DNA of 64,000 bases. Origin: Acidobacteriota bacterium (lineage in GTDB: Bacteria; Acidobacteriota; Terriglobia; Acidiferrales; UBA7541). How positions within the stretch are numbered: the stretch's first letter is position 1; every line of letters begins with the position of its first letter. The stretch covers positions 1 to 64,000 of the forward strand of contig QHZD01000020.1 of NCBI GenBank assembly GCA_003225315.1, in the 5' to 3' direction. Shown here piece by piece: positions 45,943 through 49,388 of this stretch. A model generated the notes under the pieces. The model did not search any database. It saw only the letters and a list, made by a program, of their open reading frames with translations, and was not told the DNA's origin. The position numbers were made by a program, and so were the translations under genes.

Positions 45943-46404
45943 GTGCGTTCGCACTCCAAATCCTCCAGGCCGCCCATCTCGCTGGAAAACCGCGTTTTCA
46001 TCGCCCTTTTGCAATCCGCCGACGCCCTGACCCAGGAGGCGGAACATCTCGTCAAAGCCGCCGCTCTAACGGGCGCGCAATACAATGTTTTGCGTATTCT
46101 TCGCGGCGCCGAGCCTGAAGGCTTGGCCTGCAAGGGCATCGGCGACCGCATGATTTCCCACGACCCGGACATGACGCGCCTCCTCGATCGCATGGAAAAG
46201 CGCGGCCTGATCACCAGGGAGCGCCAGACGGACGACCGCCGCGTCGTGAAGACGCGCATCACGCCGCAAGGACTCAACCTACTAAAAATCCTTGACCAAC
46301 CGGTTCGCGACCTTCATAAACGCCAGTTCCGCCACATGTCCGCCGCGCGCCTGAAGATTCTTTTTGATCTGCTGGAAGAAGTCCGCAACCGCAAGGCTGC
46401 GTAG
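45943..46404 (+). CDS. MarR family transcriptional regulator
   Basis: A 153-residue winged-helix protein from GTG 45943: AAALTGAQYNVLRIL, KGIGDRMISHDPDMTRLLDRMEKRGLI, RERQTDDRRVVKTRITPQG (the wing). It lies directly on a promoter with a palindromic operator and heads a same-strand cluster with yceI (55 bases on), a nitroreductase and the DedA-rhodanese gene. Autoregulation and control of that cluster by electrophiles or oxidants is inferred. No ribosome site can exist if the start is leaderless. Confidence 0.9.
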   Translation: MRSHSKSSRPPISLENRVFIALLQSADALTQEAEHLVKAAALTGAQYNVLRILRGAEPEGLACKGIGDRMISHDPDMTRLLDRMEKRGLITRERQTDDRRVVKTRITPQGLNLLKILDQPVRDLHKRQFRHMSAARLKILFDLLEEVRNRKAA

Positions 46405-46458: not shown

Positions 46459-47079
46459 ATGGGCCACTATCTATCTCGAATCGCAGTAACCGCCGGACTC
46501 GTAGCCGCTCTTTCGCTGCCCGCCGGAGCAGCCACTGCCGAATGGAAGATTGATTCGCAGCATTCGTCCGCGCAATTTTCCGTCCGCCATTTGGCCATTT
46601 CTACCGTGCGCGGAGCTTTCAGCAAGGTTACCGGCACGGTCGTGCTGGACGATAAGGACATCACCAAGTCCACCGTCGACGTGACCATTGACGTATCCAC
46701 CGTGGATACTCGCGAGCCTAACCGCGACAACGACCTGCGCAGCGACAAGTTCTTTGACGTCGCGCACTACCCCACCATGACTTTCAAGTCCAAGAAGGTC
46801 GAGCAAGTCGCTCCCGGTAAGCTCAAAGTCACCGGCGATCTCACCATTCGCGGCACTACAAAGGAAGTCGTGCTCGACGTGGACGGCCCGACACCTCCCG
46901 TGAAAGATCCCTGGGGCAATCAAAGGATTGCTGTAAACGCTTCGTCAAAAGTCAATCGCCAGGACTTTGGCGTGAAGTGGAACGCCACAATGGACAACGG
47001 CGGCGTGGTCGTCGGCGATGACGTCAATATCAACATCGACGCGGAAATGATCAAGCAAGCGCCAAAGCCGGGCAATTGA
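46459..47079 (+). CDS. YceI family periplasmic lipid-binding protein
   Basis: A 206-residue protein from ATG 46459 (AAAGAGGAGAAAAAC upstream). The signal peptide (IAVTAGLVAALSLPAGAATA) is followed by the lipocalin-like YceI barrel: WKIDSQHSSAQFSVRHLAISTVRG, split into its first strands, DLRSDKFFDVAHYPTMTFKS and GDLTIRGTTKEV. YceI proteins bind isoprenoid-type lipids such as polyprenols and are often next to MarR regulators. It is second in the MarR cluster. Confidence 0.93.
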   Translation: MGHYLSRIAVTAGLVAALSLPAGAATAEWKIDSQHSSAQFSVRHLAISTVRGAFSKVTGTVVLDDKDITKSTVDVTIDVSTVDTREPNRDNDLRSDKFFDVAHYPTMTFKSKKVEQVAPGKLKVTGDLTIRGTTKEVVLDVDGPTPPVKDPWGNQRIAVNASSKVNRQDFGVKWNATMDNGGVVVGDDVNINIDAEMIKQAPKPGN

Positions 47080-47182: not shown

Positions 47183-47788
47183 ATGAAGAAGCCGGCGCCA
47201 AGCGATTTCCCGGTTCACGAACTAATCCGCGAGCGTTGGAGTCCCCGGGCTTTCGCTGACAAGCCTGTTCCTAAAGACGTTCTGCGCAGCATTTTCGAGG
47301 CTGCCCGCTGGGCGCCGTCCAGCTTCAACGAACAGCCCTGGGCGTTTATCGTGGCCACGAAAGACGGCAAAGAAAATTTTGAGAAAATGCTGAGCGTCCT
47401 CGTAGACTTCAACGTCCAGTGGGCTAAGAGCGCTCCTGTACTGGCGCTTGCCGTCGCGAAACTGGCATTTGCTAATAACAACGCACTCAACCGCAACGCC
47501 CAATATGACACCGGCGCGGCAACAGCTCTTCTCTCCGTGGAAGCCACCGCGCGCGGCTTGGCCGTCCATCAGATGGCCGGATTTGATGCGGAAAAAGCGC
47601 GCCAGGTCTTTGAGATTCCCAAGGGATGGGAACCCCTCGCCGCGCTCGCCATCGGTTACCCGGGCGATCCGGCTTCTTTGCCTGCGCCCTTAAAAGACCG
47701 GGAGATGGCGCCCAGAACACGCAAACCGATTGCCGAATTTGTTATGTCCGGTCAGTGGGGGCATACTGCTCCTTTCGCAGCGAAATGA
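47183..47788 (+). CDS. Nitroreductase family protein
   Basis: A 201-residue flavoprotein from ATG 47183 (GGAAGGAACCAAC upstream). Nitroreductase features are ERWSPRAF, FEAARWAPSSFNEQPWAFIVA (FMN contact), NAQYDTGAATALLSVEATARGL and IGYPGD. It reduces nitro compounds, quinones or similar electrophiles with NAD(P)H. It lies in the MarR-YceI cluster, 103 bases after yceI and 25 before the DedA-rhodanese gene, consistent with a detoxification unit. Confidence 0.92.
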   Translation: MKKPAPSDFPVHELIRERWSPRAFADKPVPKDVLRSIFEAARWAPSSFNEQPWAFIVATKDGKENFEKMLSVLVDFNVQWAKSAPVLALAVAKLAFANNNALNRNAQYDTGAATALLSVEATARGLAVHQMAGFDAEKARQVFEIPKGWEPLAALAIGYPGDPASLPAPLKDREMAPRTRKPIAEFVMSGQWGHTAPFAAK

Positions 47789-47813
47789 AGGAGATCATCG
47801 GCCCAGCCCAGCC

Positions 47814-48767
47814 ATGCACCGTACGCTCGAATTCCTTCTCCATCACGGATACGTTCTGTTGCTCGGATGGGTTTTCGCCGAACAAATAGGACTTCCGCTT
47901 CCTTCGATGCCGCTGTTGCTCGCTGCAGGGGCTCTCGCCGGCACTGGCCACTTGAATTTTCTAGCCTCACTCTTTTACGTCATCCTCGCTGCCGTAACGG
48001 CGGACTCCATCTGGTACCAGCTTGGCCGCAGCAAGGGCATCCGGATCCTCCAGCTTCTCTGCAAGATTTCGCTGGAGCCGGATTCCTGCGTCCGCCGCAC
48101 CGAAGGCGTTTTTTCGAAGCAAGGCGCTCGGTCGCTTCTGCTTGCAAAGTTTTTGCCGGGCCTGAGCACCGTCGCCCCTCCGCTGGCGGGCATTTTTCAC
48201 ATGCGTCCGCGTCGTTTCCTGCTTTTTGACGCCGCGGGATCGCTCCTCTGGGCCGGCTCTTTCCTCGGCCTCGGCTACATTTTCAGCGGGGGGATTGAGC
48301 GCATAGCGGAGCATCTCGCCGCTCTTGGCGGCTGGCTTCTGGTGCTTCTGCTCGGCATCCTTGGCGCGTACATCACCTATAAGTTTGTCGCTCGCCAGCG
48401 TTTTCTGCGCGATCTGCGCATTTCTCGCATTACCGCGGATGAGCTGAAACAAAAACTCGACGCCGGCGAAGAGCTGGTCATCGTTGACCTGCGCCACTCG
48501 GTTGACTTTGAAGCTGACCCGGAAACCATTCCCGGAGCCTTCCACATGGACTCCAAGGACTTGGAGGGGGACAACGATCGTTTGCCGCGCGACCGCGAAA
48601 TCATTCTCTACTGTACTTGACCAAACGAAGCCACCAGCGCCCGTGTGGCGCTGCTCCTCAGAAAGAAAGGCATCACGCGGATTCGGCCGCTGCAGGGCGG
48701 TCTGGACGCCTGGCGCGAACGCGGCTACCCGCTCGAAACCCCCACGGTCACTGCAGATACAAAATAA
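47814..48767 (+). CDS. Predicted selenoprotein: DedA membrane protein fused to rhodanese, TGA at catalytic Cys
   Basis: The frame from ATG 47814 is 318 codons, broken only by TGA 48618-48620 (codon 269). Residues 1-195 form a DedA/SNARE-associated membrane domain (FAEQIGLPLPSMPLLLAAGALAG, KFLPGLSTVAPPLAG). Residues 205-310 form a rhodanese domain (ELVIVDLRHSVDFEADPETIPGA). The active-site loop reads ILYCT-U-PNEATSARVALLL, so the TGA stands where rhodaneses have the nucleophilic Cys. It is followed by the normal domain end, RIRPLQGGLDAWRERGYPLE, to TAA 48765. Without readthrough the rhodanese would lack its active site. A good SECIS hairpin follows. It is the last gene of the MarR cluster. Confidence 0.85.
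48635..48653 (+). promoter_or_regulatory. Candidate bacterial SECIS hairpin
   Basis: CAGCGCC, loop CGTGT, GGCGCTG: a perfect 7-bp stem with a 5-base loop having G in second position. The loop begins 22 bases after the TGA at 48618-48620. Distance, stem length, loop length and early G all meet the usual bacterial SECIS description. Confidence 0.75.
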
Positions 48768-48783
48768 GGCCTATTTGTATCCT

Positions 48784-49276
48784 CTACAGCCGCGGCAACA
48801 CAATCCCGCTCTGCGCCTGATACTTCCCTTTCTTGTCCTTGTAACTCACTTCGCAATCTTCATCCGACTCGAAGAAAATCACTTGGCACAGCCCTTCATT
48901 CGCATAAATCTTCGCAGGCAGCGGCGTGGTGTTGCTGATTTCCAGCGTCACAAATCCTTCCCACTCCGGCTCGAACGGCGTCACGTTCACGATAATCCCG
49001 CACCGCGCGTAGGTCGATTTCCCCACGCAGATCGTCAGCACGTTCCGTGGAATGCTTGAACTCCACAAACGATTTCGGATCGAACCGCTTCGGATCCACG
49101 ATCGTCGAATTCACGTTCGTGAAAATCCGGAACTCGTCCGCCACGCGGATATCGTAGCCGTACGATGATACTCCGTAACTGATCACTCCCTCTCGCACCT
49201 GCCGGTCCGTAAACGGCTCGATCATCTTTTGCTCCAGCGCTTTGCGCCGGATCCAGCGGTCTGGCTTGACGGCCAT
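48784..49276 (-). pseudogene. dcd: Broken dCTP deaminase gene (internal deletion plus frameshift)
   Basis: The N-terminal part from ATG 49276 matches Dcd ([51 protein letters not shown]). The C-terminal part in another frame continues the same protein ([19 protein letters not shown], the catalytic-Glu region [28 protein letters not shown]), ending at 48784. At the join near 49053-49060 about 20 residues are missing and the frame shifts by one base. The lost part is the strand with VCIIPPNSFAL in normal Dcd. Reading 493 bases gives about 164 codons against the usual 185-190. Either a true pseudogene or an assembly error. Confidence 0.8.
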
Positions 49277-49388
49277 CCATTCCTCCCTAGGAAGTGTAGC
49301 TTCGATTTGTCTTTTCGATTTGTTGCTGCGCCAAATTGTTTGGGTCGCGCGCGGCAAAAGATGTTCAGTGTAGATTACCCCTCCCGTC

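Follow-up and report, generated by a model that had tools for sequence, protein, structure and literature searches.

A predicted membrane-anchored selenoprotein that joins a CxU rhodanese to a DedA-fold domain in Acidobacteriota

Two kinds of protein resembling the one described here are already known: rhodanese selenoproteins with a CxU motif, and DedA-rhodanese fusions that carry cysteine. Closest to the rhodanese part is the family NF041203 (rhodanese_LYCAU), a '(seleno)protein' given in the excerpted text of PMC13188914 as rhodanese-like form 3, motif CxU. Like our protein it has a rhodanese domain with selenocysteine (Sec) in LYC-x-U; it is a 126-position model, whereas in our protein the motif is LYCTU and the rhodanese is joined to a DedA domain that has two more conserved cysteines. 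According to the same excerpt, rhodanese-like forms 1, 2 and 4 are also Sec rhodaneses, but with UxxS or UxxG and no CxU pair. TsoB (NF045694), listed there as a rhodanese/DsbD fusion-like selenoprotein, by its name joins a rhodanese to a DsbD-like membrane module and thus resembles our protein; however, it has two Sec residues (UxxxxU), its module is DsbD-like and not DedA, and our protein scores 16.3 bits against its cut-off of 805. The described DedA-rhodanese fusions, PA1209 of Pseudomonas aeruginosa (PMC12893004) and those within COG0586 (PMC10127716), have the same order as our protein, N-terminal DedA-like and C-terminal rhodanese. Unlike it, they are presented with no mention of Sec in the excerpts of these two papers, PA1209 being compared by its description. 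The Cys relatives of our gene, in Dyella and others, share this architecture. As a lead, an extract of a soil review (PMC11422209) mentions a role of DedA in selenite uptake, as indicated by mutants of Ralstonia metallidurans. Among the matches listed from the open-licence literature, as excerpted, we found no report of a Sec-containing DedA protein or of a Sec version of the fusion.

In this report, we analyzed a stretch of 64,000 nucleotides from an Acidobacteriota genome, hereafter the window, together with homologues of one of its genes. Our main finding is that this gene very probably encodes a membrane-anchored selenoprotein, a CxU rhodanese on a DedA-fold domain, which is the best explanation overall; insertion of Sec at its codon 269 we regard as almost certain. 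An earlier note on this DNA had called the gene a probable selenoprotein, and that proposal is now strongly supported by TGA or Cys at codon 269, a selected downstream frame, a hairpin specific to TGA genes and the presence of sel genes. What is new here is a set of exactly four conserved Cys/Sec residues (C83, C92, C267 and U269), two of which, C83 and C92, are missing from 16 of 19 plain DedA proteins. If the prediction is true, the DedA/VTT membrane protein superfamily joins the selenoproteome, selenium use is pointed to in mostly uncultured soil bacteria, and the pattern of the four residues makes the unexplained link between DedA and rhodanese testable.

The gene is a single frame from an ATG at 47814 to a TAA at 48765-48767, with one in-frame TGA, beyond which 48 codons follow in the same frame. 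The frame and the Pfam domains thus reproduce what the earlier note had described, a DedA-rhodanese fusion interrupted by one TGA and continued for 48 codons. Its features are as follows.

47814-48767, + strand: predicted DedA(VTT)-rhodanese selenoprotein gene, full product of 317 residues with Sec at 269 (frame, Pfam domains and homologues).
47898-48278, + strand: VTT/DedA membrane domain, residues 29-155 (Pfam PF09335, 58.7 bits against a cut-off of 33.9).
48060-48062, + strand: codon of C83, a DedA-loop Cys (Cys in 54 of 55 rows with one gap; 57 of 57 in a second alignment).
48087-48089, + strand: codon of C92, a DedA-loop Cys (Cys in 54 of 55 rows with one gap; 57 of 57 in the second alignment).
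48432-48719, + strand: rhodanese domain, residues 207-302 (PF00581, 53.5 bits against a cut-off of 22.2; fold match to 3tp9).
48612-48614, + strand: codon of C267 (TGT), the active-site-loop Cys (Cys in 55 of 55 and 57 of 57 aligned rows).
48618-48620, + strand: TGA predicted to be read as Sec, codon 269 (TGA in 58, Cys in 61 and another codon in 3 of 122 distinct loci).
48635-48653, + strand: putative SECIS-like hairpin with a 7-bp stem and a 5-base loop CGUGU, G being the second loop base (comparative folding; not kept in Cys genes).

The Pfam rhodanese match runs across the TGA, and a structure model with a mean pLDDT of 83.1 has the rhodanese fold (against 3tp9, Z 16.5, rmsd 1.6 over 106 residues). 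If a gene caller ends the frame at the TGA, residues 269-317 are lost, and with them the predicted active-site Sec and the remainder of the rhodanese domain. The protein scores 93.8 bits with NF041203, below the cut-off of 115, and all 57 aligned family members match this model at E 1e-10 or better; the C-x-U/C motif after LY is present, as LYCTU in the window. An AAGGAG lies about 20 bases upstream of the ATG (47788-47814), beyond the usual distance of a ribosome-binding site; the start is conserved in relatives.

Homologues were sought in 101 genomes (the window's own and relatives) and in a named genome collection. Distinct loci were defined by removing identical 420-base contexts only, near-copies such as L002 and L035 being counted twice, and L105, in which codon 269 is not covered, was left out of the count. 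Among the 122 distinct loci, codon 269 is TGA in 58, TGC or TGT in 61 and something else in 3; these last are poor or unrelated alignments, L108 looking decayed, L167 being an ordinary rhodanese with a different loop and L169 having its Cys one position off. Such recurrence of TGA at the same codon is more than chance. Codon 269 could be read in 33 genomes of the window's genus and is TGA in 30 of them and Cys in 3. According to record titles, the TGA forms belong to Acidobacteriota, five Rokubacteria bins (L054, L056-L059) and a deltaproteobacterial bin (L060), and the Cys forms to Dyella, other Proteobacteria bins, other Acidobacteriota and single bins of other phyla. One further TGA form, L053 (CAJCHZ010000043.1), is labelled Betaproteobacteria; the same contig is G006:C43, of the window's genus, and the label is probably wrong. 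In a phylum-wide sample of 396 genomes, 71 gave a homologue at E 1e-30, and 30 of these 71, the window's included, have a match with one internal TGA, irrespective of its position.

On a quick tree of 99 rows, calculated with residue 269 masked, at least 12 switches between Sec and Cys are required, and starred branches force 8 of these. These natural Sec and Cys versions are ready-made pairs for testing the benefit of selenium. The five Rokubacteria copies form one Sec clade (98 support), which is placed with weaker support among Acidobacteriota copies and may reflect horizontal transfer. A distant second lineage of DedA-rhodanese fusions (L159-L163, 35-39% identity) has Sec in four members and Cys in one. 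In the close relative L154 (G030:C385), a frameshift, perhaps an assembly error, puts the rhodanese part in another frame than the DedA part.

The frame downstream of the TGA is open in all 58 TGA loci: none has an in-frame stop within up to 42 codons 3' of it (one contig ends at 38), and over the same stretch the other two frames are stop-free in 27 and 36 of the 58. Among 41 TGA genes, pN/pS was 0.35 for the 41 codons that follow the TGA, compared with 0.31 for the 60 preceding ones, TGA genes of 55% identity or less and saturated pairs being dropped (672 and 806 of 820 pairs used) and fixed offsets being taken without alignment, a choice by which small indels add noise. As judged from these comparisons of sequences, the frame 3' of the TGA is under purifying selection. 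Could the gene still be a pseudogene, or a truncated DedA that ends at the UGA and is followed by a relic? There is a stop in frame, where ordinary annotation would end the gene; the close copy in G030 is split by a frameshift, and L108 appears decayed. However, a relic does not fit a genus with TGA in 30 of 33 genomes and Cys in the other three, nor a downstream frame that is open everywhere, selected and, after the TGA, frozen at synonymous positions; the chance that the gene is one is close to nil. The earlier note had asked for homologues with Cys at codon 269, and had named random substitutions after the TGA as the mark of a decaying pseudogene; the relatives carry Cys or TGA, with no random substitution. 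Sequencing error was also considered and was rejected, since TGA stands at the same codon in 58 of the 122 distinct loci and the downstream frame is selected. Global reassignment of UGA was rejected as well: 20 of the 58 distinct TGA loci themselves terminate at TGA, so that it is still a stop there and no wholesale reassignment has taken place.

The window's genome contains selA, selB, selC and selD, and the lack of Sec machinery that the earlier note had given as a ground for refuting its proposal is not what we observe. SelA was matched at 468 bits (567.5 bits to TIGR00474), SelB at 364 bits (cut-off 242) and SelD at 349 bits (cut-off 125), and a tRNA-Sec with anticodon UCA at 69 bits with Rfam (cut-off 47). 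The Rfam tRNA-Sec model matches all 14 controls, above the cut-off in 5, and the identification of selC therefore rests on a call by ARAGORN as well. No tRNA gene was found on the stretches read of the selA contig; selC lies elsewhere. Close to its start, the selD gene (L127, G000:C46:56403-57368) has one in-frame TGA, and its product is probably a selenoprotein too.

When genomes are sorted by the codon of the fused gene, SelA reaches at least 100 bits in 48 of 49 TGA genomes versus 10 of 14 Cys genomes, a table confined to genomes that have the fused gene and leaving out G029, a fragment without codon 269. In a second set, at E 1e-20, the counts are 6 of 6 versus 12 of 19. Fisher p values are 0.007 and 0.14, and 5e-5 when pooled, with the genomes treated as unrelated (kinship uncorrected); SelA occurs in most Cys genomes too. 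The one exception among TGA genomes, G026, has a SelA-like match of only 37.7 bits and a partial selB match of 248.6 bits, in an assembly that is 85% complete and in 800 contigs. A different decoding of the UGA, as Cys or another residue by a tRNA outside the true Sec system, might also be imagined: tRNAs that read UGA as Cys have been described, and Cys is the alternative residue wherever the alignment is sound. We consider it extremely improbable, given the complete set of selA, selB, selC and selD, the SECIS-like hairpin that UGA genes have and Cys genes lack, and the 20 distinct TGA loci, out of 58, that end with TGA.

The hairpin begins 14 bases downstream of the TGA, where the earlier note had placed it, with its stem at 48635-48641 / 48647-48653 and its loop at 48642-48646. 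Taken from the window alone, the sequence does not fold better than expected by chance (z -0.69; equalled or surpassed by 44 of 200 shuffles), and the significance of the hairpin comes only from comparison among homologues. Among 47 TGA genes of more than 50% identity, those of 50% or less being left out, codon 275 is AGC in 46, and codons 276 and 279 are GCC and GCG in all 47; the 61 Cys genes use several codons at each of these positions. The RNAalifold consensus of the 58 TGA sequences is a 5-bp hairpin at -8.36 kcal/mol, and that of the 61 Cys sequences has 2 pairs at -0.22 kcal/mol. For the 7-bp stem, 92.9% of cells are paired in TGA genes and 11 cells are changed on both sides, values reached by 0 of 500 shuffles in either case; in Cys genes 58.8% of cells are paired, and 29 of 500 shuffles are as high. 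The second loop base (alignment column 26) is G in 58 of 58 TGA rows.

Changes on both sides occur at two pairs, column 22-32 (GC 53, AU 3) and the outer pair. The latter, formed by third codon positions, is CG in 32, GC in 7, AU in 1 and UG in 1 of 56 distinct rows, the other 15 being unpaired; at the next stem pair, 8 rows are unpaired. That number of pairs is not unusual, since 73 of 500 shuffles reach two (further pair types are reached by 174 of 500), and the covariation is thus modest; codon freezing is stronger evidence for the predicted hairpin than covariation. A synonymous-codon shuffle over 42-base windows gave a mean z of -1.01 at the TGA in 55 Sec genes and -0.07 in 58 Cys genes, the stand-alone rhodaneses L164-L166 and the Cys rows L168, L109 and L110 being left out. 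This signal too is modest, and the tests made at the level of the alignment are more telling than those on single sequences or synonymous shuffles. The Rfam model SECIS_1 (RF00031) gave no match at the window and matched 0 of 14 control genomes. A covariance model of the hairpin found in the window's genome only its own element (80.1 bits; next 14.4 bits, E ~10); it reveals no further selenoprotein there, the selD region being unmatched.

The same element is seen outside the close family. Three stand-alone rhodaneses of other Acidobacteriota, L164 (4073-4126, - strand), L165 (4211-4264, + strand) and L166 (4070-4123, - strand), share the position of the TGA and have an almost identical hairpin, AGCGCCCGTG[TC]GGCG, which makes the element common to fused and unfused forms. 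In the L159-L163 lineage, three Sec rows keep the pairing through a change from G-C to A-U.

The predicted Sec is located in the active-site loop, which reads Y266-C267-T268-U269-P270-N271-E272-A273 (C-T-U-P-N-E-A-T-S from C267). Y266, C267 and residue 269 (Cys or Sec) are invariant in 57 aligned rows, and C267 and 269 also in 55; as C267 is Cys in every aligned homologue, the Sec site is a C-x-U pair. Alignments with known rhodaneses disagree on which of the two residues corresponds to the active-site Cys. With single sequences, 3tp9, 6pfz and 5ve3 place their active-site Cys on C267, with two extra loop residues, 6mxv (both domains) places it on residue 269, and 3k9r has no Cys there. Among profile alignments that reach the loop, C267 is matched by the Cys of 3tp9, 6pfz and domain 4 of 1yt8, and residue 269, in a gap-free loop, by that of 6mxv (both domains), 3iwh and domain 2 of 1yt8; domain 1 of 1yt8 has no Cys in the loop. 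In the model, a strand ends at 266 and a helix starts at 270. The earlier note had put the UGA exactly at the catalytic cysteine: its place in the active-site loop stands, but whether Sec replaces the nucleophile is undecided, the rhodanese alignments being split between C267 and 269.

The canonical active-site loop of rhodaneses is C-x-x-G-x-R. It is visible in 3tp9 and 5ve3 and missing in the window's protein, in which the loop has no Arg (3 of 55 rows have one, at 270) but does have Glu272, as do all 55 rows. The missing Arg and the invariant Glu would argue against a plain thiosulfate sulfurtransferase, and this loop does not favour the selenium-dependent sulfurtransferase of the earlier note. 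One form of that idea is a membrane-tethered enzyme in which U269 is the nucleophile that carries sulfane sulfur and C267 is resolving or structural. Its fold would be right, a helix that is modelled as beginning at 270 would set residue 269 at the helix N-terminus, and the gap-free alignments of 6mxv, 3iwh and 1yt8 domain 2 agree with it. We nonetheless think it doubtful: 3tp9, 6pfz and 5ve3, at the price of a two-residue loop insertion, and 1yt8 domain 4 align C267 to the active-site Cys, C267 is Cys in all aligned rows while the Cys/Sec swap takes place at 269 only, and the loop, as just mentioned, lacks Arg and has Glu272.

The only Cys/Sec residues of the window's protein are C83, C92, C267 and U269, and all four are conserved across the aligned family. 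The sequence around C83 and C92 is LCKISLEPDSCV. For comparison, 19 plain DedA proteins of related genomes were taken, with open frames of 211-297 codons and no evident rhodanese part. Both cysteines are present in 3 of them and both are absent from 16; the Cys pair thus does not need the fused domain. These three (L175, L176 and L183) have the same pair as the fused family, and a motif scan beside them gave no convincing CxU rhodanese, with one chance match. Lys and Arg are abundant both in the C83-C92 loop, for which the model has low confidence (block pLDDT 63-64), and in the linker that precedes the rhodanese domain. From these positive residues we infer that loop and linker, and with them both parts of the protein, probably lie on the cytosolic side.

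The re-entrant helix of the DedA domain differs from that of plain DedA proteins at one of its two basic residues, which we equated with R130 and R136 of YghB by spacing and our own alignment. The first is kept (K112; Lys in fused rows). At the second, position 118, all 55 fused rows have S, N, A, G or T, versus Arg in 19 of 19 plain DedA proteins. Matching basic residues are essential in COG0586 proteins according to the excerpt of PMC10127716, and the replacement of the second would make a different, or redox-linked, membrane function likely. This bears on the proposal that the work of the protein is done by its DedA part, as a flippase of lipid or undecaprenyl-phosphate (UndP), and that the Sec-rhodanese is a redox sensor that regulates it. 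DedA-rhodanese fusions do occur among the COG0586 DedA proteins, which that excerpt presents as thought to be UndP flippases, and one of the NCBIfam matches of our protein is the UndP transporter UptA, although its 41.8 bits fall short of the cut-off of 250. But a flippase whose second basic residue is never Arg or Lys in 55 fused rows, the first being Lys, is hard to reconcile with the reported need for the residues that match by alignment and spacing, and we judge this proposal distinctly unlikely.

The reading that we prefer remains a membrane-anchored CxU selenoprotein. Comparison of homologues supports its predicted Sec at 269, its hairpin, its machinery and its four conserved Cys/Sec residues. 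SelB and the Sec-tRNA(UCA) would decode the UGA at codon 269 with the help of the SECIS hairpin that begins 14 bases downstream, and the product would be a DedA-fold membrane domain with a cytosolic rhodanese-fold domain whose active-site loop holds C267-x-U269. As neighbours, C267 and U269 might be able to join in a selenenylsulfide and resolve it, or to hand on a persulfide; a redox or persulfide role of the pair seems to us somewhat more probable than not. The pair might also exchange with C83/C92 on the cytosolic face of the DedA domain, a step that is possible, if far from assured. The selenenylsulfide chemistry, this exchange and the substrate are points that we infer. More speculatively still, the protein could be a new membrane redox device, in which C83/C92 would trade electrons or sulfane sulfur with the C-x-Sec rhodanese, and selenol chemistry would drive or gate a membrane step. 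If this were true, it would be the first selenoprotein of the DedA superfamily, common to many soil Acidobacteriota and some Rokubacteria.

Upstream of the gene are members of the MarR, YceI and nitroreductase families, as the earlier note had said, each identified by family match and neighbourhood comparison.

45943-46404, + strand: MarR-family regulator, conserved neighbour.
46459-47079, + strand: YceI-like protein, conserved neighbour.
47183-47788, + strand: nitroreductase-family protein, ending 25 bases before the selenoprotein gene.

In the genus, this linkage is kept in the loci examined as far as contigs reach, whether the copy has TGA or Cys. Of 13 loci from other genera of the family, 5 have it in full and 2 in part; loci L002-L031 were left out of the comparison. 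What is observed of the MarR-controlled stress cluster proposed in the earlier note is the conservation of these neighbours, and the cluster is the same around Cys copies. In L136, L143 and L144, the nitroreductase gene lies downstream of the DedA-rhodanese gene. Around distant homologues the neighbours differ, except that L159 and L160 have a YceI-like gene 1.6-2.4 kb upstream, and by eye no common functional hint was found among the neighbours of ten of them. On the other side of the selenoprotein gene, the minus-strand gene at 48784-49357, which we take to be dCTP deaminase-like, is broken, with part of its middle missing and its two remaining parts in different frames. Its relatives have a single open frame of at least 190 codons in 9 of 9 cases checked, and the break in the window is an assembly error or a real loss.
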